Source: a virus
IMG/VR virus record: IMGVR_UViG_3300017991_000130
Coordinates: 1 to 55,948 of that record
Strand: one strand, 5' to 3'
Length of the DNA: 55,948 nt
Shown: in pieces, positions 6,084-48,386 of the stretch
Numbering within the stretch: position 1 is the stretch's first letter
How the letters are laid out: each line of letters opens with the position of its first letter
The notes under the pieces: model-generated
What the model was told of the DNA's origin: nothing
Database searches by the model: none
Seen by the model: only the letters and a program-made list of their open reading frames with translations
Position numbers and translations under genes: made by a program

Positions 6084-7138
6084 GCCACGGCCTCCTGCTC
6101 CCTGGACTCGTAGTAGCGCTCGACCTCCTCGGCCCCTCCGTTCTGGAGCCAGCCGGAAAAATCGGCCAGCCAGCGGGTGACGGTGCCGCCCGGGGCGCGG
6201 CGGAAGCGGTCGATGGCCTGGCCCGGGCGCTCGTCGCCGCAGCCGTCGGGCTGGAGGACCAGCTCCCACAGGTCGCGGCGCAGAAGGGCCGTTCCCTCAA
6301 ATTCCTCGGCGTGCCGCTGGAACCACTGCCACATGGCCGGCGTGTAACTACCCCACAGCCGATCGTGGAGGACGTGGCAGGCTTCGTGCACGCTCCGCGG
6401 CATCCTGGCGACCAGCGGGGCCAGGCCGTGCCGGCTGAGCTTGTTGACGACCGGGCCCACGAGATCATAAATGTCCTGGAACGGCAGCCGGCCGCCGTGC
6501 TCGAAGAATCTCAGGGCCTCCAGCCAGCCCCGCTCGGCGAAGAACACGTCCTCGAACCAGTGCGTGTCGGTCGGCTTCGGCTCGGGGTGCCAGTAGATCC
6601 AGGGCACCTGGCCAAAAAGGTCCCAATGGTCGCGGAGAAAGGCGAAGTAATAGTCGTCCACCAGCCGCGCGAAACAGTCGTTCAAGGGGTCGTGCACGTC
6701 GCGAATCCGCTTCCGCCAATCGAAGGTGTGGGCCACGATCCGCCGCAGATTGCCCAGGGCGATCATGGGCTCGTTTGCCGCCAGCCAGTCGCAGGCGTTG
6801 GCCAGCCGGTCGGGCCCGTGGATGTACTCGATGTGGTTGAACGAGACGTAGCGGCCGCGGATCTTCGGCCACACCTCGCGGACCGGGCGAACGACCTCCC
6901 AGACGGGATAGCCCGTGCTGTCGCGGTCCAGGTCGCAATCGACCACCTCCACCTCGAAGGGCTGCTGGCGGGCGAGCCGGCGGATCGAGTAGCTCGACTG
7001 ACGCTGGCTCATCACCAGGACCTGGAGGCGGTCGTGGACCGAGGGGTTCAGCTCCCGCACGGCGGCAAACCAGCGGTGGTCAATGGTGAGCGGCTTCTCG
7101 GCGTCAACGAACAGCAGTACGGTCAGATCGGGGAGCAT
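6080..7138 (-). CDS. Possible GT-A-like protein of the glycan cassette
   Basis: 352 aa. The N-terminus alternates short strands and helices in the GT-A manner: LTVLLFVDAE, LQVLVMSQ, VEVVDCDLDRD, then GRYVSFNHIEYIHGPDRL where an acidic/His metal site could be. The C-terminal half is helical and tryptophan-rich. No confident family match. Its place immediately downstream of a sulfotransferase, with a stop four bases away, suggests a glycosyltransferase-like role. Confidence 0.4.
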   Translation of the reverse strand: MLPDLTVLLFVDAEKPLTIDHRWFAAVRELNPSVHDRLQVLVMSQRQSSYSIRRLARQQPFEVEVVDCDLDRDSTGYPVWEVVRPVREVWPKIRGRYVSFNHIEYIHGPDRLANACDWLAANEPMIALGNLRRIVAHTFDWRKRIRDVHDPLNDCFARLVDDYYFAFLRDHWDLFGQVPWIYWHPEPKPTDTHWFEDVFFAERGWLEALRFFEHGGRLPFQDIYDLVGPVVNKLSRHGLAPLVARMPRSVHEACHVLHDRLWGSYTPAMWQWFQRHAEEFEGTALLRRDLWELVLQPDGCGDERPGQAIDRFRRAPGGTVTRWLADFSGWLQNGGAEEVERYYESREQEAVA

Positions 7139-7757: not shown

Positions 7758-8315
7758 TTACGGGCCTCCTTTCGGCCGTCCGGGGTCTTCGTCGTCTCGG
7801 AAGCAGTAGCGGAGGACGATCCGGTCCAGTCCGCCCGCGCCGGAGACCAGGGCGTAGCACTCCGGCTCCAGACCCGTCCACAAGGCCAGCGTGTCCAGTG
7901 AGATTGCACCGTGGTCGCCGTGCGAGGCCGGCCAGAGATAAGGGACGCTCAGCACCGCCCAATCGGCCACGCGACGGGCTTCGGCGAACGCCTCTGGCTG
8001 ATAACCGTCAAAATGTTCCCAGACCTGGAGGCTGACGAGCAACCGGTAACGGCCGTCAGCGATCGGCCACGGCGCCTGGCGGGCGTCGTGCCGGTAGGCA
8101 ATCGGGATGCCGTGGTCGCAGTTGTCCAGCGTGTCGCACCCCGGCACCAGCGGCAGCCGGTAGGGGCCGATCTCCAGCACGTCGCTGGGCTGCCACTCTC
8201 CCCAACCGGGAATCTGCCGGCACAGTCCGGCTGCCACCCGCATGTACTCCCAGCGGCCCGCATAGTACGGGTCGGCGAGGGCCTGTATTTGAGTGCGGGT
8301 GAGAAACTCTAACAC
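7758..8315 (-). CDS. Class I SAM-dependent methyltransferase
   Basis: 185 aa from a GTG preceded by GGAG and overlapping the epimerase gene by 7 nt. DVLEIGPYRLPLVPG is motif I of a Rossmann methyltransferase, LDNCD follows the second strand, and LLVSLQVWEHFDGYQPEAF is the motif IV region. No SAM-independent features. As part of the epimerase/sulfotransferase run it most likely O- or N-methylates a sugar. Confidence 0.65.
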   Translation of the reverse strand: MLEFLTRTQIQALADPYYAGRWEYMRVAAGLCRQIPGWGEWQPSDVLEIGPYRLPLVPGCDTLDNCDHGIPIAYRHDARQAPWPIADGRYRLLVSLQVWEHFDGYQPEAFAEARRVADWAVLSVPYLWPASHGDHGAISLDTLALWTGLEPECYALVSGAGGLDRIVLRYCFRDDEDPGRPKGGP

Positions 8316-9409
8316 GACGGCTCCTTCTTCGGCCCCTCCCATTCGCCCAACGGCGTGCTGCCGGTGGTAAGGATGTCGGCAATCCGGTCTGCCGCGCGGC
8401 CGTCGCCGAAACAGTCGCAAGGACGGTTCATGGCGGCGAGTGCCTTGGCGTCGCCCAAAAGCCGATGGGCCTGATCGTAGAAAGCTTGCCCGGTCAGCAA
8501 CGTCACTCCGTAATCGACCGATTCGGGCCGCTCTGTTACCTGCCGGACCAGTAGCGTAGGCACTCCCAACACTGCCGCCTCTTCCTGCACGCCCCCGGAA
8601 TCAGTAATCACCAATGATGCCGCCGAGAGGCAGGTCAGAAAGACGTTGTGGGGCAACGGTCCTTTGAGCAGGACGTTGGGCCTGCCGTGACAGTACATTT
8701 GCGCGGCGTCGCCGATCTCCGGATTAGAGTGGACGGGCCAGACGAAACGAGTCGCCGGGTGTTGTTTGGCCAGCTTTCGCAGCGAGGCTGCCAGACGGGC
8801 CATGTGCGGCCAGTTTTCTCGCCGGTGGAGCGTTATGAGCACGGTCTGTTCAGGAGGCTGTCCATTCTGCTGCCGCTGGACGCCGAGCCGTTGTAAGCCG
8901 TCGACTATCGTGTTTCCCGTGAGGAAGACAGTGGCTCTTTCGATCCATTCGCCCAGACAGTTCCACACGGCGAGATCCGTGGGACAAAAGTGCCAATGGC
9001 TGATGGCGTCGATCTGCCGGCGGGTCATTTCTTCCGGCCACGGTTCACGGCCGCGGGTTCTGAGTCCTGCCTCTACATGGGCCACCGGTACGTCTACGTA
9101 CGCGCCGGCCATGGCTCCGGCCAGGTCGCTGATCGTGTCGCCCACAACCACCACGCCGTCATAATCAGTCACGAGCGGGGCAACCTGTTGGACCATGTTG
9201 CCCAAACGTGCCGCCAGGTCGCCGCGAGGGGGCGACAGACAATATCTGGGAGCAATTTCCAGGCTTTCCAGACAACAGTCGAACATCTGCTCTTGCTGCT
9301 TCAAGAGACAGACGTCGGCTACGGCGCCGCGCGACCGCAGCGCATGCACCACCGGTGCCAGCTTGACTGCCGACGGTCGTGTGCCAAAAGCTATGAGAAA
9401 TTGTCCCAT
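8309..9409 (-). CDS. wecB: UDP-N-acetylglucosamine 2-epimerase (non-hydrolysing)
   Basis: 366 aa, full family length. Signature segments are in order: FGTRPSAVKLAPVV, VVVGDTISDLAGAMAG, VAHVEAGLRT, PEEMTRRQIDAIS, ITLHRRENW, ITDSGGVQEEA and VTERPE. The enzyme interconverts UDP-GlcNAc and UDP-ManNAc. Phages rarely carry it. Here it would supply a nucleotide sugar to the downstream transferases. The best evidence for a sugar, rather than nucleic-acid, target of the whole cassette is this gene. Confidence 0.85.
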   Translation of the reverse strand: MGQFLIAFGTRPSAVKLAPVVHALRSRGAVADVCLLKQQEQMFDCCLESLEIAPRYCLSPPRGDLAARLGNMVQQVAPLVTDYDGVVVVGDTISDLAGAMAGAYVDVPVAHVEAGLRTRGREPWPEEMTRRQIDAISHWHFCPTDLAVWNCLGEWIERATVFLTGNTIVDGLQRLGVQRQQNGQPPEQTVLITLHRRENWPHMARLAASLRKLAKQHPATRFVWPVHSNPEIGDAAQMYCHGRPNVLLKGPLPHNVFLTCLSAASLVITDSGGVQEEAAVLGVPTLLVRQVTERPESVDYGVTLLTGQAFYDQAHRLLGDAKALAAMNRPCDCFGDGRAADRIADILTTGSTPLGEWEGPKKEPSC

Positions 9410-17506: not shown

Positions 17507-18550
17507 TTACTGGCAGTTGGTGAACAACACGCCCGAGGCCGGGGCCACAACCTTGGCCGCGATGTTCTCCACCACGCGGCCCAGCGTGCGGCGGTTGTCC
17601 ACGTCGTTCTTGGTTTGGACGGTCATCTCCTCGTAGGCGAAAACGACCACCGTGGAGAAGGACGGCGCGCCGGCCACTCCCTCCAATTCGCCCACACGCG
17701 AGCAGAGACACGCCTTGTCGGTCGGGAAGACGCTGGAGACGGCGCGGGTGGCGCCCTTGCGGCTGGTTACCTTTCGCGTCGATTCGACGAACAGCTCGAT
17801 GCCGTACAGCTCGTTGGGCAGGCCGTAGCGGGTGTTCCGCCCGCCCTGGATCTCGCCCTTGATCATCGCCAGGGCCGCCGGCGAGGCCTTGATGTAATCG
17901 ACGATCTCCTGACAGAGGGCGATCTTGCCGGCCAGGCTGCCGGAGATCACCAGCCGCAGGTCTTCGGTTCGGACCACGTCCAGGGTGTCGTCGGCAATCT
18001 TCTCGGCCGCGGTGATCAGCGACCGCTTGATGTCCTGCCGGGCGGTGGTCGAGAGGGCCCACGTGCCGCTGTTACCGCTGACGGCCGTAACGTCCATCAC
18101 GTGGCTGGCGTCGTAGTTGCCCGTGGTCACCATCTGGTTAACGGCCAGTTGCGTGCGGGCCGTCATCGCCTGGCGGGCCTTGATCGAGCTGTGCTGGGCG
18201 ATGATGTCCCAGGTGGCGTTCTCGACGGTGAGGTTCCCCAGCTTGAAGGGGAACGCCCGGCGGGTGCAACTGAAGGGCTTCCACTCGAAGCTCTCGGTCC
18301 CCTCGTTGCCCTCGGGGGCCGGCTCGCCGTCGTACCAGACGAAGTTGTCGAGATTGGCGTTGAGGATGCGACCCGCCTCCTCGACGGTCATCTCCAGATA
18401 GTAGCCGGCCACCTTCTGGACCGGGATGATCTGGGCGTAGCCGTTGACGGGGAAGTCTTTGACGTTCCGCGCGAAATCGACGACCATCTTGCCCGAGGCT
18501 TCATGGCTCCTCACGAAGACATTGCTCGGGCCGGGAAAAGTAACTGCCAT
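17507..18550 (-). CDS. Major capsid protein
   Basis: 347 aa. Length and layout fit an HK97-fold capsid of the Mu/E-like branch: an extended N-arm, NFVWYDGEPAPEG, spine helix region SSIKARQAMTARTQLAVNQMV, and the A-domain ISGSLAGKIALCQEIVDYIK ... RYGLPNELYGIELFVESTRKV. GAGG lies ten bases before the ATG. Downstream of a decoration protein and a protease/scaffold, as expected. Confidence 0.8.
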   Translation of the reverse strand: MAVTFPGPSNVFVRSHEASGKMVVDFARNVKDFPVNGYAQIIPVQKVAGYYLEMTVEEAGRILNANLDNFVWYDGEPAPEGNEGTESFEWKPFSCTRRAFPFKLGNLTVENATWDIIAQHSSIKARQAMTARTQLAVNQMVTTGNYDASHVMDVTAVSGNSGTWALSTTARQDIKRSLITAAEKIADDTLDVVRTEDLRLVISGSLAGKIALCQEIVDYIKASPAALAMIKGEIQGGRNTRYGLPNELYGIELFVESTRKVTSRKGATRAVSSVFPTDKACLCSRVGELEGVAGAPSFSTVVVFAYEEMTVQTKNDVDNRRTLGRVVENIAAKVVAPASGVLFTNCQ

Positions 18551-21224: not shown

Positions 21225-22787
21225 TTACTTCGAGCCACTCCTGGCAGGTTTCTCTTCGGGTTCCGGCATGGGGGCGATCCGGTCGGCCAACCCGACTACC
21301 AACCGGACCAGCCCGCCGAAGAGCATGTCGTCCCACGGATTCTTGGTCCGGGCCGCCATTTCCTTCCCGCGGTCAAGCAGCTTTTCGGCAATCAGCTTGT
21401 CGCCGGTCTTTACCCGGTCGCGGGTGTCCCGCAGCACGACGATCAGGAGAATCAGCACGCCGGCAATGATGGCGATCGGCACCCAGGCTCCGTAGGCAGC
21501 CAGCTTGAGTGAGCCGAGCGTTCCATGAACTGCTTCCAACTTTGTGGCCAATCCTTCAGGCAACAGCCCTTTGACCTTTTCCAGCAACCGTGGTTCCGCG
21601 GCCTCGACGGCAGTTGCAGCCACTTCACTTGCCACCTTGCCCGCAACCTCATCGGCCGCCTGAACGGCCACCTGCTGGGCAACGTCCTTCGTCGATGCAA
21701 CGGCCGCCTCGACCTTCGGATTGAGTTGGGCCAACACGTTCTCTTGGACCTTACCAACCGCGGCAGCGATGGCTTGGTCGGCCTTGCTCTCCGAAGCCTT
21801 GAGGGCCTCGGCCTGCTTCTTCACTTCCTCGATGATCGTGTTGAAGCGGGCCACCTCTTTTGAATGCTCATCGAGCACGACCTTCTGTTCGCCCACCTGC
21901 TTCTCGATTTCGGCCACCTTATCGAGTACGATCGAGTCATCGTAAGATTCTGGTTTCACTTCGGGCACGGGCAACTGCTGCTGCCCGGCTTCCAATTGGC
22001 CGATTCGCCCGCCGTGGTCCTCCAGTTGGTCGCGGGTCTTCTGCCTGAAACCGAATGGCCACAGAAACTGATCGTCCGAACAGAGGGCGAAGATGCGCGG
22101 CAGGGCGGGGCCCACCGTGCCCTCTTCATTCCAGGCACGCCAGTGCGAGCGGCTCACGACGCTGACCAGTTCGCCGGCCGCGTTGACGATCGCCCCGCCA
22201 GACATGCCGGGAATCGCGTTAGCCGTGGTCGCCAAGCTTCCATACCGATCGTTCGCCGGGCCCTTGTACGTGCTGTTCTCATAGGCTTTGACGCGGGCCC
22301 GGATCGTTTGCCACGCCCGGCCGCCGGGAAAGCCACACAGCCGCACCTCTTCGCCCTGCTTCGGCCAAGTGCTGGCCATCACGCACGGCTCGGGTTTCGG
22401 CCGCGGCGTCTGAATCCAGGCAATGTCCCACGTCCGATCAATCGCGATGCCGTTGCCCACGCGGGCCTTGACCACGCTGCCTTGGAGCCGCGAGCCGTCC
22501 GAGAAAACTACCGCGATGTTGTCGCGGTCTTGGCCCTCGACGACGTGGTAGGCTGTCAAAACCAGGCCGTAATCGTCGCCCTTGGCAACCAATGTGCCGC
22601 TCGCCCCGCGAACCCGTACGGCCCAACCCGGAATCGCCGAATTGTCCACGGCAGGCACCTGAATGCGAGCCCGCCCTTGGAGCGACGGATTGCTGCTGGG
22701 GCAATTGCCGCTCGGGCAATCCTGCTGTGCGTAGGCCGTCGCCGCCATGAGCAACGCGGCCGCCAAGCCGATCAAGTAGCGTTTCAT
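21225..22787 (-). CDS. Membrane-anchored trypsin-like serine protease
   Basis: 520 aa. Signal peptide (MKRYLIGLAAALLMAATAYA), then an S1/S46-type protease core with the triad H81 (LTAYHVVEG), D121 (RTWDIAWIQ) and S196 (PGMSGGAIV). After the catalytic domain comes a coiled-coil stalk (about 260-410) and a membrane helix (VPIAIIAGVLILLIVVL, near 430). The expected topology puts the protease outside the inner membrane. Not typical of phages; lies among lysis-like genes. Confidence 0.75.
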   Translation of the reverse strand: MKRYLIGLAAALLMAATAYAQQDCPSGNCPSSNPSLQGRARIQVPAVDNSAIPGWAVRVRGASGTLVAKGDDYGLVLTAYHVVEGQDRDNIAVVFSDGSRLQGSVVKARVGNGIAIDRTWDIAWIQTPRPKPEPCVMASTWPKQGEEVRLCGFPGGRAWQTIRARVKAYENSTYKGPANDRYGSLATTANAIPGMSGGAIVNAAGELVSVVSRSHWRAWNEEGTVGPALPRIFALCSDDQFLWPFGFRQKTRDQLEDHGGRIGQLEAGQQQLPVPEVKPESYDDSIVLDKVAEIEKQVGEQKVVLDEHSKEVARFNTIIEEVKKQAEALKASESKADQAIAAAVGKVQENVLAQLNPKVEAAVASTKDVAQQVAVQAADEVAGKVASEVAATAVEAAEPRLLEKVKGLLPEGLATKLEAVHGTLGSLKLAAYGAWVPIAIIAGVLILLIVVLRDTRDRVKTGDKLIAEKLLDRGKEMAARTKNPWDDMLFGGLVRLVVGLADRIAPMPEPEEKPARSGSK

Positions 22788-25028: not shown

Positions 25029-25406
25029 ATGCGGTTAGGACAAAATCGGAATCCGGAGCGGGAGCGGGAGTGGCGGGAACGGGTGGACGCTCAGCAGGCG
25101 GCCATCGACGCGGTGGTGCCGCGGTGGAATGGCGGCTATAAGGATTGGGTCGACGTGACCAACGACTCGCGTCCGTATGCTACCTGCGAGACGGCCGCTA
25201 CTCGGCTAGGACACGGGGAACACCCCACAATCACGGTCCGCAACGCCCGCGAAATTCGCAGTGAACTCAAACGCTTCGGCTACCGCTACGATGGCGATGG
25301 CGGCTGGGTCCGCCGGATCGCCGACGATCTGGCCGATACAATTGAGGAGCTAATCAACTGCGGCGTGGTTCGCGAGCGCATTTTTAACGCACTCGGTTGC
25401 AAATGA
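25029..25406 (+). CDS. Hypothetical moron protein
   Basis: 125 aa, charged and mixed helix/strand; motif ITVRNAREIRSELKRFGYRY and a C-terminal helix. No family recognised. First gene of the plus-strand block; its TGA overlaps the next hairpin-SD module. Confidence 0.65.
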   Translation: MRLGQNRNPEREREWRERVDAQQAAIDAVVPRWNGGYKDWVDVTNDSRPYATCETAATRLGHGEHPTITVRNAREIRSELKRFGYRYDGDGGWVRRIADDLADTIEELINCGVVRERIFNALGCK

Positions 25407-25433
25407 GCCGGTACAGCCGGCAGGAGATGAGAG
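25405..25433 (+). promoter_or_regulatory. Hairpin-SD module, copy 2
   Basis: GAGCCGGTACAGCCGGCAGG then AGATGAGAG: loop changed from CAC to TACA-like but the GCCGG/CCGGC arms, the AGGAG and the ATGAGAG spacer are kept, which implies selection on the arms and SD. Confidence 0.65.
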
Positions 25434-26048
25434 ATGAAACTCTACAAACTCACAGACGCGAACGGCCGCACGTATGGTAGCTGCCAATGGGGAGAGGGCA
25501 TCGAGCATACGGCCAGCGGCGAGGGAGACCTGTGCGGCCCCGGGTGGCTCCACGCCTATACCGATCCGTTGCTGGCCGTGCTCCTCAACCCAATACATAC
25601 CGGCTTCAACGATCCGTTGCTCTGGGAGTGTGAGGGAGAGGTTGGTCACGAGGACCACGGCCTGAAGGTGGGATGTACGCGACTGCGCACGATCGGCCAG
25701 ATCGCGATGCTCACGGTGACCACCGAGCAGCGAGTACGGTTCGCGATCGGGTGCGCTCGTCGGGTATGTCAGGAACCGAGTTTCACGGCCTGGGCCGATG
25801 CCTGGCTGAACGGTACGGATCGTTCAGCCGAGGCGGCTGAGGCGGCGGCTGAGGCGGTTGATGCGGCGGCTTGGGCGGCGGCTGAGGCGGTTGATGCGGC
25901 GGCTAGGACGGCGGCTAGGGCGGCTTGGGCGGCGGCTTGGGCGGCGGCTTGGGCGGCTGAAGCGGCGGCTAGGGTGGCTGAAGCAGCAGCTGAAATCGAC
26001 CTTGTAGCTATCGCCAGAGAGGCAATGAGAGGCGGGGTTGGTGACTGA
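25434..26048 (+). CDS. Moron protein with N-terminal YKLTD domain and Ala-rich helical repeat
   Basis: 204 aa. Residues 1-120 (MKLYKLTDANGRTYGSCQWG, CGPGWLHAYTDPLLAVLLNP) match a widespread but uncharacterised phage/bacterial domain I have seen with similar Ala-rich tails. From about residue 127 come tandem short repeats (AEAVDAAAWAAAEAVDAAAR) encoded by GCG-rich units that could slip and vary in length. The last residues are GGVGD. Confidence 0.65.
   Translation: MKLYKLTDANGRTYGSCQWGEGIEHTASGEGDLCGPGWLHAYTDPLLAVLLNPIHTGFNDPLLWECEGEVGHEDHGLKVGCTRLRTIGQIAMLTVTTEQRVRFAIGCARRVCQEPSFTAWADAWLNGTDRSAEAAEAAAEAVDAAAWAAAEAVDAAARTAARAAWAAAWAAAWAAEAAARVAEAAAEIDLVAIAREAMRGGVGD
25826..25985 (+). repeat. 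Imperfect GC-rich tandem repeats encoding Ala/Trp helix
   Basis: Units of the form GCGGCTTGGGCG or GCGGCTGAGGCG repeat within the previous gene. The encoded Ala-rich repeat is a plausible length-variable tract. Confidence 0.6.
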
Positions 26049-26060
26049 CCCGTTACACTA

Positions 26061-26090
26061 GAGCCGGCCGCGCCGGCAGGAGGTGAGACG
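26061..26090 (+). promoter_or_regulatory. Hairpin-SD module, copy 3
   Basis: GAGCCGGCCGCGCCGGCAGG then AGGTGAGACG and the ATG. Same arms; SD is AGGAGGTGAG. Confidence 0.7.
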
Positions 26091-26633
26091 ATGAGAGACT
26101 ATCAGGGCGTTGAATGCACAATCCGAGTGACGAATCGGGGGCGATTCCAGGTTCTGCCGGTACCACACAATGGCCGGGACCTGAGCACCCAACCTGTTTT
26201 CGAGACGCGCGAGGCGGCCGAGGCATATATTCGCCGCCCCATGCCAGCCTGGGAATTGGCAGAGCGTCACCGGCGGGCAGAGCGTCAGGAATATGCGAGC
26301 GCTTACGCCTCCATCCTGGCCGATCCCACCCTACGGGAGATGCGAGGCGCCATTCAGTCCCAGTATTCTGCTGCGGCATATCGCAGCAAATTGGCAGCAG
26401 ATCACCAACGGGCTGCGGTGCGGGCTGATGGGCAGGTATCTGTAATCGGCAGAGATATTTCTGCCGCGCATCAACACTACGCTGATGAAATCGCCGACGA
26501 TTCCTATGGGGAATGGGCGCGACATCGGCAACTCTGCGCGGAATACGAGCGGGAATTGCAGATCCGGATGACTGCTGCGGGGATTCCTGTCGAGTTGTTC
26601 CGCGCACCCGTGTTGGGCGGGGTTGGCGATTAA
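26091..26633 (+). CDS. Hypothetical moron protein
   Basis: 180 aa. N-terminal MRDYQGVECTIRVTNRGRFQ strand region, then a long charged helix; ends LGGVGD, sharing the terminal GGVGD with the gene before. No family recognised. Confidence 0.6.
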   Translation: MRDYQGVECTIRVTNRGRFQVLPVPHNGRDLSTQPVFETREAAEAYIRRPMPAWELAERHRRAERQEYASAYASILADPTLREMRGAIQSQYSAAAYRSKLAADHQRAAVRADGQVSVIGRDISAAHQHYADEIADDSYGEWARHRQLCAEYERELQIRMTAAGIPVELFRAPVLGGVGD

Positions 26634-26856: not shown

Positions 26857-27260
26857 GGAAGACCGAAAGATCCGCTGTGTGCGACTGTTGCGGCGAGGAA
26901 CGTCTCTGCCGCTTGGTGGATATAGAGGCAGGATCGTGGTATTGCTGGAGCTGCTGCAAGGGCTGGCCTGGACCGTGGAACAAACTGGGCCGGTGCGGTG
27001 CTTGCGGCGTGTGGGCCCCTGGTAAGTCGATTGTCGAGACCGTCGATGGACCGCGCTGCGAGCTTTGTGCCGAAGACTATCGCACCTGCGATTGGTGCGG
27101 AAAGACGGTCGATGCCGAGACAATGGACTATTTCCCGTTGCCCGACAAGGACGACAGCCATGTCTGCGCAAATTGCTTCCAGGCGGCGACGAAAGCCCTC
27201 GAAACCCTCATAGAGTCTCGTCGGACAACTCCGGTGCGGCCCCAAACCGCTTCACGGTAA
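26853..27260 (+). CDS. Multi-zinc-ribbon protein
   Basis: 135 aa from GTG 26853. Four knuckle pairs (CDCCGEE, CWSCC, CGACG, CELC, CDWCG, CANC) form about three zinc ribbons. Likely a nucleic-acid or protein adaptor. It runs into the converging minus genes (overlap 27208-27260). Confidence 0.6.
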   Translation: MRKTERSAVCDCCGEERLCRLVDIEAGSWYCWSCCKGWPGPWNKLGRCGACGVWAPGKSIVETVDGPRCELCAEDYRTCDWCGKTVDAETMDYFPLPDKDDSHVCANCFQAATKALETLIESRRTTPVRPQTASR

Positions 27261-27432
27261 AATGCGGCAGGCCCAGCTTGCCCCCCTTGGCCGGAACCAG
27301 GACTTCTACGTTGCCGGTGAAGGCCGGGTCGAGCTGCACGGCCATCAGGCGGTCCAGTTCAGTGATCACGTGGAGCCGCGTGCGGCGGTTCTCGTCGGCG
27401 GCCGAGTGGTTGAACTGGCGGCGTGCGGTCAT
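27208..27432 (-). CDS. Small hypothetical protein, last of the portal operon
   Basis: 74 aa; ATGA overlap with the previous gene. Contains RRTRLHVITELDRLMAVQL and a beta end. It overlaps the 3' end of the plus-strand zinc gene by 53 bases, a convergent overlap. Confidence 0.6.
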   Translation of the reverse strand: MTARRQFNHSAADENRRTRLHVITELDRLMAVQLDPAFTGNVEVLVPAKGGKLGLPHFTVKRFGAAPELSDETL

Positions 27433-27638
27433 GGAGTCACCTCGAAGCCGCGGGTCCGAAACTCTTTGGCCAGCATTTCGTCAAGCGCATCGGTCGGCGA
27501 ACGGTCCGGCTCTTTTGCCGGATCGAACCCCAGCACGGCCACCACGTCCGGCGGCGTCTCGGACATTTCCTCGTCGTCCGGATCGTCCTCGTCGGCAAGT
27601 ATTTGCCGCCAATCTTCGGGCTTGTCGGTGTCGCTCAT
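27429..27638 (-). CDS. Small acidic protein
   Basis: 69 aa, strongly acidic (ILADEDDPDDEEMSETPPD). ATGA overlaps on both sides (27638 with the portal gene, 27432 downstream). The charge and place after the portal suggest a small assembly or decoy-type protein. Function unknown. Confidence 0.55.
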   Translation of the reverse strand: MSDTDKPEDWRQILADEDDPDDEEMSETPPDVVAVLGFDPAKEPDRSPTDALDEMLAKEFRTRGFEVTP

Positions 27639-30600
27639 ACGGCTACCTGCGCTTTCCAGGCATCGAACACGTGTGGATCAATGTATGATTGCAAGGCAAT
27701 CACGAGCGTGTTGCCCAACAATTCCGAAACCTGTCTGGCGACCTCGCGGATTGCCTTGCACCGCTGTTGCTCAGTCTCAGGTCGCGGCAGCCGCTCCACT
27801 AGCTCTCTCGCCGCTAGCGTACCGCGGATCGTGCGAAAATCCTTCGTCTTGAATCCGCCGCCATTGAGCGTGTGCGAGTAGTCGAGTAGCTCGCCGGCCG
27901 TCGTGGCAAAAAGCTGGCCGTCCGGCCCGGCTTCTTCGCTGCGCTTGAACAGATCGGCCGCAATCTTGTCATCGTGAATCGGGATATCCAAGGACACGCC
28001 TTTCTTGCCCGTGAACCGCAACCGAACGTTGCCGCTCCCGTCCACCACGACGTGCTTTCCAAGGAGCGTCGTGGCTCCATAGGCCCGAATCTCGGCCTTT
28101 GTGTCTCGTTCGCTGCCCGGGCGAATGCCCGTGGCCTGGACAAGCCGCCAGACGGTTGCCGCCTCTCGCGTCTTCTTGTCGCCGCTTGCGATATCGTGCT
28201 TGTTTTGCGCCTGCATTTGGGCGAGTTTCTCGATTCCCTCTTGGACGCGAGCAAACTTGGCCGCGGCCTGTCGCTGGACGTGGTCCGGCGAGTAGATGCG
28301 TTGCTCACGGCCTTTGGCGTCGATGCCGCGAGCCAGAACGTGATGGGCAGGATCGGTAGAGATTTCTGCCGACTTCCAGCCCGGCGGGAGCCGGAGTTTG
28401 CCGACGTGCTCGGGCATCGTCGCGCCGCCCGGCATCTGCCATTCGTGACGGGTCCTGGCCTCGCCTTTCTTGGTCTTGTAGCGGACGCGGCGCTTCTGGA
28501 GAGACTGAAACGGCGCAAACTGCCCGGCATTGTCCGGCTGCCCGCGGGGGTGCTTCGTTTCGTCCCACTTCGGCTTCTGGGCTCGACTGAACTTCGCCTT
28601 TTCTTCTCCTGTTTTTTTCGTCCGAAGGCGAGCAGCTTTTTCTTTTTCTATAGCCCTTGATCGTATTTCGCCTTTGGATTGTTTCAGGTCGGGGTAATCA
28701 GCCAGAACCTTCGGACGAACGGGAACGCCTGCTTCAATGGCGCATATGACTGCGCGGCGGTGATCGTTTGGCGTCCAATGCCGTTGGATCGGCCTTCGTT
28801 GTTCGTCGAAGTCGGCGCTTTTCCATTTCTCTGCCTCTTCTTGTTGGGCTTCGGCAAGCGTTTTGTCCCATGCATTCTGACCGGGAGTTTGCTGGTGCCG
28901 GCGGCGAGTTAGCGCGTTGTCGAGGTCTGCCTCCCAACCTAGGAAAGATTCAAGCACTTCGTCCGGTACCGGCTTGCCGGCTTCGAGTGCCTTTCGTATG
29001 GATTCGAGATGAAAGCGCGGCACTTCTTCGATGTCCTCTTTGGTGACCTTCCGCCCAGCCTTATCAAACTCAGCCTGCTGGTGTTTCAGCCACTCTCTCC
29101 GGGTCATTTGCCAGGGCTCGGAAGGCTTGTTTGAATCTTTTACGGGCTTACCCTTGGCCTTCCGCCGTCCCTGCGCGTCCTTACCCGTCTCGGGGTGCGG
29201 CTGCTTTTCCAGGGCCTTTGCCTCGGCCTTGGTGAGATCATCACCCTCAATGCCGCGGTTGCTGGCCCGATACCGTTCCACTCGCCGCAGTCGGCCGCGC
29301 CGATCGTAGATCAATCGTTCCATTCCGGGCCGCAACCGGCGGTAGCCTTCCGTCCGCCCGCTGAGTGCCGCAAAGAGCTTTTGGTAGTCGCCCTCAGGTG
29401 ACGGCGGCGACGGCATTTCCGGACCCTGCCCGTTTCCGCCCGGGCCTGGTGCGCCGGGCTGTCCGGCCGCCTGTGGGTTTTGCAGCGTGTCTTCATCCGG
29501 CTGTGCGATGGCCGCGCCGATCAGTTCCGCCACATCGGCCGCCCGAAGCTTGAGCCCCATGTTGTAGGCTCGCTCCCATGCCACCAGCTTGCCTTCCACG
29601 TCGGGCGACTCGGTTTCGATTACAAACCGGATGGGGCAGCCGGCGTATTTTGGCCAGTTGTACCGCAAGAGCGGCTGTACGAGGTCTGTGGTCAGCGTCT
29701 CGCCGAGATTGATGGCGTCGTAGCGGACGATCTGGAGGTATGTGTCCAGGTGGATCGTGGCCACGCCGGAACCTAGGCCCGTGGAGGCCGTCTCGCTGGT
29801 GAGGATCTGGCCCAGGATGTAGCGCTTGATCTGCCAGCCGAAATATTCGCGGATGATGCGGTCCAGGGCGTCGGCCCCCGCCATGCCGGGCTCGATCCGC
29901 TTCACGTCGGTCGAGAGTACGTCGCTGTCCGGGTGGCGGGGCACGAGCACGATGTTCCGGCCCTGGCCGATCCGTTCTTCGGCGGCCTTCAGCGTGTCGG
30001 CCTTGGCCTGGGCGTTGCCGGCCGGGTAGCTCCAGATCTCCATGCCGAACGCGCTCCGCTCCAGGTACTCCATCAGCCAGGCGAGCGTTTCCTGCTTCTG
30101 GTACCAGAGCCAGTAGAGGCGGTTGCGGATGCCCACGCCGTGAATCGCCCCGGCGCGGTCCGGGGCCTCGTACTCGGCGTCTTCGATCATGTGCTTGTGA
30201 ATCGCCAGCAGCGGCCTCTCCCAGTGTTCCAGAAAGTAGGCCAACCCGTGGTCGGTAGGGGCAATCTTGCCGAATCGCTCGATCACCCAGCGATTGGCAA
30301 TCTGCGAGCCGGCCGTGTAGCCCGCCCCAACGCGGATGCCGACTTGATCGTCGTCGTACTCGCCGGTGCCGTCGTCGTAGCGGAACACCAGCTTGTCGCC
30401 GTTGACCGGCCGCCACCGCTCGACCGCGACCCGCATCTTGCCGCCGATCGTCTTCCAGCGATAACGGTGAGCCACCGCGTACTTGCCGTACCACAAGGCA
30501 TAGAGCAGGTTTTCGCGGTACTTAAGGAAATTCGGGATCTGACGAATGATGGCCGACAGCTCATCGACGAGCGTTTTTTGCGCGGCGTTCTTTTCGTCTT

Positions 30601-30901
30601 CCGCTTCCAGGTGCCACCCCAGAAGTGCCGTTGACCGCTGTCGTTGTTCCAGGCACTCCATGATGCCCGGGTCGTTGCGCATGAAGCGGGCGTTCTCCCA
30701 CGAGTGCTGCATCGCCTCGTCGGAGACGTAGTACGTCCGGGCCACGTTCCGCAAGATGCCCTGAAACGTGACTACGTGCGGCAGCACATCCTGGCCCATG
30801 CCGGGCGGCATCCCCGGGATCTCCTCGAAGGGGTCGCGGTCATGGGAGTCGCCAGAGCGAAGAGGCTGGCGAGCTGGACAGTCGTAGCTGATAACGGACA
30901 T
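27635..30901 (-). CDS. Portal protein fused to polyvalent modules and a topoisomerase IB domain
   Basis: 1088 aa in one uninterrupted frame. Residues to about 480 are a DUF935-type portal (VVTFQGILRNVARTYYVSDE, IKRYILGQILTSETASTGLG). Then come polyvalent-like modules (PWQMTRREWLKHQQ, AGKPVPDEVLESFLG, AGVPVRPKVLADYPDL) and WDETKHPR...NAGQFA, a motif common in injected/MuF-type proteins. Residues about 829-1088 are a type IB topoisomerase catalytic region with R927, K966, R1023, N1064 and Y1073, the bacterial-type pentad. Start: first good ATG is 30901; no strong RBS. Confidence 0.75.
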   Translation of the reverse strand: MSVISYDCPARQPLRSGDSHDRDPFEEIPGMPPGMGQDVLPHVVTFQGILRNVARTYYVSDEAMQHSWENARFMRNDPGIMECLEQRQRSTALLGWHLEAEDEKNAAQKTLVDELSAIIRQIPNFLKYRENLLYALWYGKYAVAHRYRWKTIGGKMRVAVERWRPVNGDKLVFRYDDGTGEYDDDQVGIRVGAGYTAGSQIANRWVIERFGKIAPTDHGLAYFLEHWERPLLAIHKHMIEDAEYEAPDRAGAIHGVGIRNRLYWLWYQKQETLAWLMEYLERSAFGMEIWSYPAGNAQAKADTLKAAEERIGQGRNIVLVPRHPDSDVLSTDVKRIEPGMAGADALDRIIREYFGWQIKRYILGQILTSETASTGLGSGVATIHLDTYLQIVRYDAINLGETLTTDLVQPLLRYNWPKYAGCPIRFVIETESPDVEGKLVAWERAYNMGLKLRAADVAELIGAAIAQPDEDTLQNPQAAGQPGAPGPGGNGQGPEMPSPPSPEGDYQKLFAALSGRTEGYRRLRPGMERLIYDRRGRLRRVERYRASNRGIEGDDLTKAEAKALEKQPHPETGKDAQGRRKAKGKPVKDSNKPSEPWQMTRREWLKHQQAEFDKAGRKVTKEDIEEVPRFHLESIRKALEAGKPVPDEVLESFLGWEADLDNALTRRRHQQTPGQNAWDKTLAEAQQEEAEKWKSADFDEQRRPIQRHWTPNDHRRAVICAIEAGVPVRPKVLADYPDLKQSKGEIRSRAIEKEKAARLRTKKTGEEKAKFSRAQKPKWDETKHPRGQPDNAGQFAPFQSLQKRRVRYKTKKGEARTRHEWQMPGGATMPEHVGKLRLPPGWKSAEISTDPAHHVLARGIDAKGREQRIYSPDHVQRQAAAKFARVQEGIEKLAQMQAQNKHDIASGDKKTREAATVWRLVQATGIRPGSERDTKAEIRAYGATTLLGKHVVVDGSGNVRLRFTGKKGVSLDIPIHDDKIAADLFKRSEEAGPDGQLFATTAGELLDYSHTLNGGGFKTKDFRTIRGTLAARELVERLPRPETEQQRCKAIREVARQVSELLGNTLVIALQSYIDPHVFDAWKAQVAV

Positions 30902-37437: not shown

Positions 37438-39696
37438 TCATTTGGCGAGTCGCCACCGCCGGTTGCCGTTGCGATTGAAGCGTATCGACTGCCGCGGCGC
37501 GGAAACCTCCCGGTGATCCACGGAAGTCGGCTGCTCCTGCAGCCCGCGGGTGGGAGAAAACACCAGGTAGCGGAGGCAGTCGGCCAGGTCGTCGTCTCGC
37601 TTCATCGGCACCGGCTTGGCGACCTCCGGGTTGAGGACGTTCCCGTCGGCCGCGGTGCGGCCTTTGCGCCAGCGGTACTTGCGCAGCTCTTCGACCAGGT
37701 GGCTGCACCGCGGGTGTATCCACAGCCGCGGCTTGCCGCTGTAGGGGCCGATCTTCAGCAGCCCGCGGACGCAGTTGATGCCCTGGTACACGTCGTTCGA
37801 CGCGGGCGCCATCTGGACACCGTAGCGGGTGAAGGCGGTCATCTCGCCCGGCCGGCTGGGGTCGGCGTAGGTGTAGCCGAACGTGTCCAGGGGCCGCAGC
37901 GTCGGCGTGTTATGGGGGTCGCGACGCCATTGCTCGAACCATCCGTACCGACTGTCGCTGATTTCTTCGAGCCGCTGGGCCACCAGGTCGCAGAACCGTC
38001 GCAATATCGGGTCTTCGGACTCGACGAAGACGTGCCACGGCGGCGGCCAGCCCCAGAAGATCGAGCGGGCCATGATCTCCACGGCGTGGTCGATGGTGAT
38101 CCGCGTCTGGTCGGCCGAGAGATACTCGTCGTAGATGAACCAGTCGCCCATGCCGTCCGCGTAGCCCCAGAGCGTGGCGTGCGGGTGCTCTTCGCTCGCA
38201 CCCCAGTCCACGGCCCGCATGTGCGTGATATTGAGCGGGAAGGCGAAGACGTCCGCGCTGACGTGCACCGCCGGGTTGAAGCTGGGGTAGATGCAGCCGA
38301 CGAACGTGGCCAGTGCCCCGGTCATGCGGGTCTGGATCAGCTCGCCGGGCACGGTGGCGAAGAACTGGTCGAACCAGCCGTCCGCCAGGTTCGCCACGTT
38401 GCAGGCGGTGTTGGCCCGATAGAACTTCCAGCCCTCCGGAGGATCGTCCATCACCTTCTCGACCCATATGCACAGTTCGGGGTCGATCGGCGTGAACTCG
38501 GCGAACTGCCCGCCGGGGAACATGTATTCGCGGCAGCCGCGGAGCACTTCGAGGAAGATGTCGAGCGGGAACTGCTCAGAGAACCAGAAGCCGCCGATCG
38601 AGCGGGCCTGCATCGAGCGGCGCCCCTGCTCGTAGCTCTTGAACTCCAACACCCAGTTCTTGCCCGGGCGCCCGGGCCACGGTTTCAGGGGCACGCTGAA
38701 CGGCAGGCCGCGCTTCGAGTCGTACCAGCGGATGCCGTCCCACTCGACCTCGCAGTCGGGGATGAACTGCTGGCCGGAGAGTTTTTCGGCCCAGCAGACC
38801 CCCATTACCTGCTCGTAGGTGTTGGAAATCACCCAGAACGGCGTGTTCTTGCGGGGCGGCGGCTGTTGCCGGAGGAGGAAATTGGCGGTCTTCCAGGCGG
38901 CGGCGGCGGTAGTGCCGCTATTGTGGTGAAAGAGACCGGCATGCTCGTAATTCCGGTGTGGCCAGACCGATAAATCGTGGAAGACATCTTGCCGTAGAAA
39001 CTCAATGGCGGCAATATGAAGGTCATTGCCTCGCGTTTCCCCTAAAGGAGACCTTGTCAATGCCAAAGAAGGTCCCGTGTCAGCTTCGTCGGCTTGGGAT
39101 TCCGAGGCGAACCGATAATGTTCAGACGCAGGTAACAATGCGTCACCGATGCGAAGCGTCCGAACTTCCCGCCAATTGCCGCGGGAATCTAAAACCCGAT
39201 GGAAGAGCGTTGCAGCAAAGGAGTCACCGTTCGACAGTCTAATGCGGTATAGACGGGCACGGCCCTTGATAAAGGGACGACTTGCCAACCCAATTTCTGT
39301 CGCTCCGGTTTGGTTGTTTCTACTCAGGACGTGAAATGGACCGTCGATCTGATCGAGGCGTCGATGCTGACGTTGCATTGGATCATAGATCAGGGACTCC
39401 CCAGCCAAACAGGCATTTCCACCGACGAGAAACGCCACGGGATCCCGGTTGCGGCAGAAGCTCGCCTGCTGGTCGAACAGTTCGGGCTTATCGGGCCGTG
39501 GGGTGAAGTTGGCCCAATAAGACTCCTGGAGCTGAGCCCACTCTTGAAACGTGGGATCAGAGGCGAGCACAGCCACGGCATCGTCCCGCAGCTCATCGGG
39601 GATCATCGACAGGGCGTCCACGCCGCGATACGTTCCCTCGCGCGGCCAGTCGTCCATGACCGCGGCAACAGTCGGCCCGTCTAGCAGTTTCCGCAA
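37438..39696 (-). CDS. terL: Terminase large subunit interrupted by a mini-intein
   Basis: 752 aa precursor, about 588 aa after splicing. The ATPase P-loop is split: residues VAFLVGGNA (87-95), then the intein, then SGTTAAAAWKTANFLL (260 on), giving GGNASGTT, where the usual lysine is threonine. Later SIGGFWFSEQFP is the Walker B region and MRAVDWGASEEHPHATLWGY opens the RNase H-like nuclease. Packages DNA through the portal. Start ATG at 39696 lies next to a repeat element. Confidence 0.85.
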   Translation of the reverse strand: MRKLLDGPTVAAVMDDWPREGTYRGVDALSMIPDELRDDAVAVLASDPTFQEWAQLQESYWANFTPRPDKPELFDQQASFCRNRDPVAFLVGGNACLAGESLIYDPMQRQHRRLDQIDGPFHVLSRNNQTGATEIGLASRPFIKGRARLYRIRLSNGDSFAATLFHRVLDSRGNWREVRTLRIGDALLPASEHYRFASESQADEADTGPSLALTRSPLGETRGNDLHIAAIEFLRQDVFHDLSVWPHRNYEHAGLFHHNSGTTAAAAWKTANFLLRQQPPPRKNTPFWVISNTYEQVMGVCWAEKLSGQQFIPDCEVEWDGIRWYDSKRGLPFSVPLKPWPGRPGKNWVLEFKSYEQGRRSMQARSIGGFWFSEQFPLDIFLEVLRGCREYMFPGGQFAEFTPIDPELCIWVEKVMDDPPEGWKFYRANTACNVANLADGWFDQFFATVPGELIQTRMTGALATFVGCIYPSFNPAVHVSADVFAFPLNITHMRAVDWGASEEHPHATLWGYADGMGDWFIYDEYLSADQTRITIDHAVEIMARSIFWGWPPPWHVFVESEDPILRRFCDLVAQRLEEISDSRYGWFEQWRRDPHNTPTLRPLDTFGYTYADPSRPGEMTAFTRYGVQMAPASNDVYQGINCVRGLLKIGPYSGKPRLWIHPRCSHLVEELRKYRWRKGRTAADGNVLNPEVAKPVPMKRDDDLADCLRYLVFSPTRGLQEQPTSVDHREVSAPRQSIRFNRNGNRRWRLAK
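38920..39411 (-). other. Mini-intein in the terminase P-loop
   Basis: 164 codons (residues 96-259). Block A CLAGESLIYDP, block B ATLFHRVLD with Thr163 and His166, and the C-terminal blocks FHDLSVWPHRNYEHAGLFHHN; the next extein residue is Ser260. No endonuclease domain between the blocks, so it cannot home itself. GC looks lower than in the extein. Confidence 0.85.
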
Positions 39697-47846: not shown

Positions 47847-48386
47847 TCATTTCTGGAGTTTGATGGTTTGCGGCGGCACGTGTTCCTTCCAGAACTTCTC
47901 GCAGGCCCCGAAGATCCTCGCCTCACCGGCGCGGCGGCAGCCGACGGTCCACCAGTGGACCCGCGGATAGCGGATCGACCAGGCCACGATCGTGCCCTCG
48001 ACGCTCTTGGGCAGCAGGCAGCTCTTCCACTTCAGCCGATGTAGTGCCGGCCGCCAGATGTCCCGCAGGTCCGCCTCGACGACGATCGCCGCGAACGTCA
48101 TCCGATCGAGCCGCTGGATCTCGGCCTCGAACCGCCGGCGTTCCTGGCCCAGCGTGGCATACAGGTCTTCGAGGCTCTTGCGCTCGACGGCGAAGCGGTC
48201 CCGGAAACGCTCGATCGAGTAGTCGCCGGTGGGAAGATAGGTCCGCACCAGGCGGACCTGAGAGTAACCGAAGAGCGTCGCCACGCCGGCGAAGCGGTAG
48301 GGGGCCTGCTCGCGGTTGTCCACGAGGATCGTGAACGGGGCCGGCTTAAGCAGTCGCGTCCGTGCTGGTTTCATCGTGGTCTTCAT
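47847..48386 (-). CDS. ERCC4/XPF-type nuclease
   Basis: 179 aa. DNREQ (D23, E26), GDYS (54-57) and VERKSLEDL (E68, R69, K70, D74) make the GD...ERKxxxD nuclease core. Cuts branched DNA in XPF/Mus81 relatives. No HhH or helicase half. Inside the cassette bounded by the 63-bp repeats. Confidence 0.7.
   Translation of the reverse strand: MKTTMKPARTRLLKPAPFTILVDNREQAPYRFAGVATLFGYSQVRLVRTYLPTGDYSIERFRDRFAVERKSLEDLYATLGQERRRFEAEIQRLDRMTFAAIVVEADLRDIWRPALHRLKWKSCLLPKSVEGTIVAWSIRYPRVHWWTVGCRRAGEARIFGACEKFWKEHVPPQTIKLQK

Follow-up and report, generated by a model that had tools for sequence, protein, structure and literature searches.

A phage contig recovered from environmental DNA (IMG/VR virus record IMGVR_UViG_3300017991_000130; all of its 55,948 bases are referred to below as the window) encodes a single protein in which a portal, the ring that DNA passes on its way into and out of the head, is fused to a C-terminal topoisomerase IB (TopIB) with an intact active site. 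About 90 contigs of uncultured phages have TopIBs of the same clade, borne by portals or other head proteins or encoded by separate genes, and the same small acidic gene follows in nearly every case. By analogy with poxviruses, it seems that phage virions carry a topoisomerase with them, and the reading that we favour, with a probability of about 0.55, is that the enzyme would be packaged, held in check and act on DNA at or after entry.

A portal protein ending in topoisomerase IB

An earlier interpretation of the window, made from the letters alone (the sequence-only reading), had proposed a portal joined to a TopIB in one frame at 27635-30901, leaving the strand unstated. The coordinates are correct, the gene lies on the minus strand, and the Portal_Mu and Topoisom_I profiles both match within an uninterrupted open reading frame (ORF) of 1088 codons; an internal stop or frameshift between the two parts was looked for, and the frame is open throughout. 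The portal profile is covered at model positions 5-335 of 336 (Pfam, E 2.1e-39), and the Protein Data Bank (PDB) sequence matches of the N-terminal half are phage portals. Upstream is the gene for the terminase large subunit, and downstream follow those for a protease, the major head protein and a sheath-like tail protein, so that the fusion gene occupies the position expected of a portal gene. The further argument that a portal present in 12 copies would place many topoisomerases at the exit is half supported, in that the contig contains no second portal match besides the fusion ORF. An assembly or frameshift artefact was considered and rejected: the frame is uninterrupted and the same architecture occurs on independent contigs. 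Specifically, a locus from a separate metagenome (L139) has the identical Portal_Mu-TopIB arrangement, and dozens of other loci carry TopIBs of the same clade on other portals, which for practical purposes rules out a chance arrangement or a chimera of the assembly.

By its profile matches, the C-terminal domain belongs to Topoisom_I (Pfam, residues 877-1065, E 1.8e-19), with Top1B_N_bact at residues 833-861 below the Pfam cut-off. Its top sequence match in the PDB is the TopIB of Deinococcus radiodurans (2f4q; residues 832-1082, E 1.4e-25), and the next is variola TopIB. The catalytic pentad is complete and in the right order, with R927, K966, R1023, N1064 and Y1073 exactly where the sequence-only reading had put them. 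Among 76 viral relatives, the R, R, N and Y columns are constant (76/76), and 74 have the K; in the remaining two (L138 and L145), the pentad K is displaced and adjoins a small insertion. The viral relatives are 35-53% identical to the window TopIB, and because sequences this divergent retain a constant active site, the viral TopIBs are probably under selection for catalysis.

The predicted structure is in accord with the profiles. Modelled with AlphaFold from an alignment of 40 viral relatives, the domain reaches a mean predicted local distance difference test score (pLDDT) of 92.3. Foldseek gave 22 matches below E 0.001, every one of them a TopIB, headed by 2f4q (E 4.7e-15). VIA-align superpositions on TopIBs reach Z of about 17-22 and mostly span the whole model. 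The catalytic core is shared with tyrosine recombinases, and Xer, Cre and integrases align to model residues 85-298; however, their Z scores do not exceed 15, they cover the catalytic half alone, Foldseek reaches them only at E 0.1, and no tyrosine-recombinase or integrase family matches the whole protein in Pfam at E up to 10, so that a recombinase in place of a topoisomerase is very improbable. By predicted fold and by active site, the domain is a complete topoisomerase IB, and catalysis is predicted.

Between the two enzymatic and structural ends of the protein, residues 460-603 are probably disordered, judging from the whole-protein AlphaFold model (pLDDT 57), which was used solely for the low confidence of this stretch. 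As internal translation starts that would yield a free TopIB, only residues 523 and 627 came up; both are weak candidates, and neither stands directly before the TopIB domain.

Carriers, linker and acidic partner of the viral enzyme

A scan of IMG/VR with the TopIB confirmed 96 loci, 80 of which were analysed; removal of duplicates and cellular-like sequences left 76, the window included. The TopIB is frequently the C-terminal domain of a large protein. It is fused to a portal in 26 loci and to a MuF protein in nine (together 35/76), as assigned by profile matches, with local profiles seeded with portals and MuF proteins identified by Pfam or PHROGs. In the 41 loci where it is unfused, a portal or MuF gene lies within about 4 kb in 25 (counted from the listing), and the other 16 have neither gene in the available DNA. 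Pfam alone, applied to 59 TopIB ORFs, identified Phage_portal_3 in 17, Portal_Mu and Phage_portal_2 in three each, Phage_portal in one and MuF in four; L139 and L082 are further Portal_Mu-TopIB fusions besides that of the window. The sequence-only proposal of a topoisomerase carried by the portal gains support from this distribution of one clade over at least four portal families and MuF. Given that the carrier families have no recognisable sequence similarity, separate fusion events are needed.

In a maximum-likelihood tree, all viral TopIBs except two are grouped (Shimodaira-Hasegawa-like approximate likelihood ratio test, SH-aLRT, 97), with one long-branched TopIB of a Bacteroides phage inside the group, and 11 cellular or cellular-like TopIBs form a second group (SH-aLRT 95). 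Parsimony on this tree yields 10 changes among six carrier states; because branches within the viral group are weak, we rely on the number of carrier families and give no exact count of fusions. All the carriers found are uncultured contigs, many of them fragmentary. In cultured phages, we saw no TopIB fusion and obtained distant TopIB-like matches in 10 records, four of which were inspected and contain genes of about 250-670 amino acids without portal annotation. Likewise, 294 Planctomycetota genomes yielded no member of the viral clade, only cellular-like TopIBs of about 30% identity in five genomes.

Many of the viral TopIBs are preceded by a linker of the form [WF]xExxHPR-x(2-10)-GxF, which occurs in 36 of 70 viral TopIB ORFs compared to 8 of 800 background ORFs and, in 33 of the 36, lies 14-45 residues before the aligned TopIB domain. 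Among the eight background ORFs, the linker accompanies other effectors, such as ADP-ribosyltransferases, and by its distribution it may be a general tag or joint of virion-borne effectors. It precedes ADP-ribosyltransferases and, judged by inspection, a RelA/SpoT-like domain, which are either fused to head proteins or encoded by small nearby genes (L103 9485-10093, L116 6735-8090, L128 3-2807, L129 3912-4760 and L132 6680-7996). Effectors adjoining the TopIB in its carriers include ADP-ribosyltransferase, NUDIX and inorganic pyrophosphatase (InPase) domains. In one locus (L085 4102-6786), the TopIB follows an ADP-ribosyltransferase domain in a single ORF directly downstream of the portal gene. 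Intein-splicing-like domains, below the curated cut-off, were seen within a MuF-TopIB protein (L121 1789-6006) and in a head-module ORF adjoining another TopIB (L105 3941-5746).

The window portal itself belongs to a lineage of which portal scans recovered about 45 related loci, with cores 43-77% identical, in IMG/VR and in 11 contigs of metagenome-assembled genomes (MAGs); 10 of these 11 are labelled Planctomycetota or families or genera thereof, and the assignment of the lineage to Planctomycetota hosts rests on these labels. The C-terminal extensions of the related portals range from 16 to 2210 amino acids and are apparently unrelated in the sequences read; that of L014, for instance, contains inorganic pyrophosphatase and methyltransferase domains. 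Effector domains thus vary among orthologous portals, as they do in polyvalent proteins. Extensions of about 800-2200 amino acids make several portals of the lineage very large (L014 4494-12092 and L037 4494-12722; also L018, L030, L035 and L059).

None of the approximately 45 loci from the portal scans has a TopIB inside the portal ORF, and a TopIB encoded by a separate gene was found in two of 21 related contigs. The closest comparison is L003, where the portal core is 77% identical to that of the window, the extension is wholly different, and the portal is directly followed by a homolog of the window gene at 27208-27432 (E 3.5e-13); L004 shows the same succession (E 1.2e-12), and neither locus contains the TopIB or the acidic gene. 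In the window, these two elements sit precisely between the portal core and the shared gene. Because L003 lacks both and retains the next gene, TopIB and acidic gene appear to have been gained or lost as one unit, and by this comparison they behave as a cassette.

The acidic gene, a second component that the sequence-only reading had missed, encodes 69 amino acids with the motif DWR...DDPDDEE...TPPDVVAVLGFDP and a net charge of -15. The acidic module follows the TopIB domain at about 75-470 nt in 63 of the 76 loci, is farther away or on the opposite strand in four (the L078 family, L098, L103 and L104), and is missing in five, including the divergent TopIBs L147-L149; the remaining four contigs (L090, L096, L099 and L112) end no more than 650 nt from the TopIB. 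The reverse scan, with the acidic module alone, returned 46 loci, 44 of which have a co-oriented TopIB upstream, in most cases no more than 75 nt away. In another (L175, the same contig as L098), the module is convergent to the TopIB, as deduced from the coordinates, and the last contig starts 16 nt before the module and was left out of the testable set. A TopIB therefore stands beside the module in 45 of 45 testable loci, and 13 of these lie in contigs absent from the results of the TopIB scan. In 39 loci, the module is a protein of at most 130 amino acids; in 22 it forms the N-terminal start of a longer protein, and in about eight ORFs (L087, L136, L191, L192, L193, L194, L197 and L200) it is fused in cis to the TopIB. 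It matched no Pfam family and nothing in cultured phages or plasmids. We regard the acidic protein as a dedicated TopIB partner that would most likely mask the DNA-binding face. In one contig (L098), two acidic DWR-LGFDP modules lie beside a single TopIB, at 6738-6977 on the minus strand and 7861-8970 on the plus strand, one of them on the strand opposite to the TopIB.

Table 1. Positions in the window of the fusion gene, its parts and the neighbouring genes discussed here
Feature	Position	Strand	Basis
Portal-TopIB fusion ORF, 1088 aa	27635..30901	-	One open frame; Portal_Mu and Topoisom_I; sole portal match in contig
Portal domain, residues 72-462, Portal_Mu / DUF935 type	29516..30688	-	Pfam E 2.1e-39; phrog_113 portal; ~45 related portals
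Residues 463-797, low-confidence stretch followed by helical segments	28511..29515	-	pLDDT <50 at 460-603; no Pfam match
Linker motif WDETKHPRGQPDNAGQF, residues 779-795, directly ahead of TopIB	28517..28567	-	Motif statistics, 36/70 vs 8/800 ORFs
TopIB, residues 798-1088, N-terminal and catalytic domain, full pentad	27638..28510	-	Pfam, PDB, AlphaFold, Foldseek, VIA-align
Acidic protein, probable TopIB partner, 69 aa, DWR...TPPDVVAVLGFDP, net charge -15	27429..27638	-	Start overlaps TopIB stop; pairing counts
74-aa gene common to TopIB-less relatives; far edge of TopIB cassette	27208..27432	-	Homologs directly after portal in L003 and L004
Terminase large subunit (context)	37438..39657	-	phrog_5653 E 2.4e-11
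Protease, candidate head maturation protease (context)	21225..22787	-	phrog_9683 protease E 5.2e-14
Major head protein (context)	17507..18550	-	phrog_1005 E 7.7e-5

Elsewhere in the window, the replication module encodes a protein with an ERCC4-type nuclease domain (47847-48386, minus strand; Pfam E 9.5e-11). A few plus-strand genes (25029-26633) interrupt the otherwise minus-strand genome; those starting at 25029 and 25434 share the identical leader GCCGGCAGGAGATGAGAG, and that at 26091 has a near copy of it, as if a cassette had been duplicated.

Proposed action at genome entry and its alternatives

Under the reading that we favour, the C-terminal extension of the portal ends in a TopIB predicted to be catalytically competent, and because portal C-termini face the head interior, the enzyme would be built into the virion beside the exit channel. 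The C-terminus of the P22 portal, for comparison, comprises the crown and barrel (PMC12005531). In other phages, the TopIB would reach the head on MuF or as the product of a neighbouring, linker-tagged gene. The strictness of the association with the acidic partner suggests that the TopIB needs to be kept from acting on DNA, or to be docked, until entry; the partner would keep it away from DNA during virion production. At infection, the TopIB, either attached to the portal as before or freed by a cut near the HPR linker, would meet the entering genome and, without requiring ATP, could remove torsion during DNA ejection, circularisation and first transcription; an alternative effect would be the relaxation of host DNA to the advantage of the phage.

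We favour action during or just after entry because the portal-fused, MuF-fused and linker-tagged forms would share placement in the head near the exit and not a place in the packaging motor, because other effectors occupy the same slot, and because vaccinia sets a precedent with an encapsidated type I topoisomerase, which, according to the sources cited for it in PMC12188299 (refs 72-73), serves early transcription. Of the two moments at which the sequence-only reading had the enzyme relieve supercoiling, packaging and entry, the MuF fusions and the neighbouring injected effectors point to entry. MuF proteins are attached to the portal on the inner side of the head, and that of SPP1 serves infection, not assembly: phage lacking it assembles normally, but no more than about a quarter of the virions are infectious (PMC6316719). 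Weighing on the other side, the virion location, release and timing of the TopIB and its inhibition by the partner are steps that we infer; the 16 loci without a portal or MuF gene leave room for a free intracellular TopIB in some phages; and the cis fusions and longer-protein forms of the acidic module fit docking as well as inhibition.

The same position at the inner mouth of the portal would also suit an enzyme that aids packaging by relieving the torsion built up as terminase fills the head. The TopIB sits on the only portal gene of the contig, and work on T4 supports a torsional compression model, with loss of the T4 topoisomerase II impairing head filling (PMC10893049). However, the same TopIB resides on MuF in nine loci, and SPP1 MuF is present in few copies and dispensable for assembly (PMC6316719); in the majority of related phages, the same portal lacks a TopIB; and the acidic partner suggests that the enzyme would be restrained during virion making. 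We consider a packaging role unlikely.

Less likely still is that the TopIB is an injected weapon, which would collapse host supercoiling or leave covalent breaks and stop host transcription, with the acidic gene providing immunity in the manner of MuF toxin-immunity pairs. The toxin-like slot of the domain, the company of ADP-ribosyltransferases and, in most loci, the position of the small gene directly behind that of the enzyme are all compatible with such a role. Yet immunity should not be welded to the toxin, and this dedicated downstream gene is also found fused to the TopIB or opening longer proteins, in the numbers given above; moreover, an enzyme that relaxes DNA would have mild toxicity unless it became trapped there. 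That the TopIB is an ordinary replication enzyme merely encoded in or beside the head genes appears improbable: jumbo phages have free TopIBs and more than half of the loci here (41/76) are unfused, but repeated fusion to different portals and MuF is unexplained for a soluble enzyme, which would also have no reason to sit behind an effector linker.

Known relatives and implications for phage biology

The fusion has the build of polyvalent phage proteins, in which portal or MuF proteins bear effector domains presumed to be packaged and then injected; the examples described include portals with PBECR, 2H and InPase domains (Iyer et al. 2017, PMC5512222). That study describes no topoisomerase, the word occurring only in a reference title, and no small protein as an obligate partner. 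A C-terminal effector on a portal-associated head protein is likewise a feature of MuF polymorphic toxins (Jamet et al. 2017, PMC5576092) and SPP1 gp7, and of the nine MuF fusions here; by contrast, topoisomerases are not mentioned in PMC5576092 and most of our fusions are on the portal itself.

Among TopIBs, that of Deinococcus radiodurans (2f4q, 3m4a) shares domain content, fold and the Asn that replaces the poxvirus His, and differs in being a free cellular enzyme and not part of a phage head protein. The TopIBs of jumbo phages (Lu11, Motura; PMC7824862) are likewise phage-encoded, but their genes, specifying about 540-670 amino acids, have no portal annotation, the proteins are 25-29% identical and separate in the tree, and we saw no acidic module with them. 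The closest functional counterpart would be the TopIB of poxviruses (vaccinia, variola), which has the same fold as the viral domain (variola Z 21.5-21.9). Nevertheless, variola TopIB is 18% identical over the alignment, the best sequence match of the window domain is bacterial, and poxviruses have no portal fusion; we know of no acidic partner gene in poxviruses. The poxvirus enzyme is encapsidated and has a role in early transcription, as cited in PMC12188299.

Portals and MuF proteins as effector carriers and the encapsidated poxvirus TopIB are known already; as far as we found, TopIB as the payload and its acidic partner are new. A literature search that mostly did not extend to subscription journals and bioRxiv turned up no description of a TopIB carried by a portal or MuF protein, nor any of the acidic partner. 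We consider it rather probable that many tailed-phage lineages possess a two-part virion topoisomerase system, in which TopIBs grafted independently onto different portals and MuF proteins would be served by an exclusive acidic controller or dock. Such a system would be to bacterial viruses what the virion topoisomerase is to poxviruses.

The known cargo of phage heads, which comprises toxins and nucleotide enzymes, would thereby come to include an enzyme acting on DNA topology; the uncharacterised acidic family tied to it is a candidate natural TopIB inhibitor. Phage biology has long lacked an account of the topological state of DNA during packing, ejection and first transcription in a new host. 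A TopIB borne on portals through repeated independent fusion makes this question experimentally tractable, through a single tyrosine.

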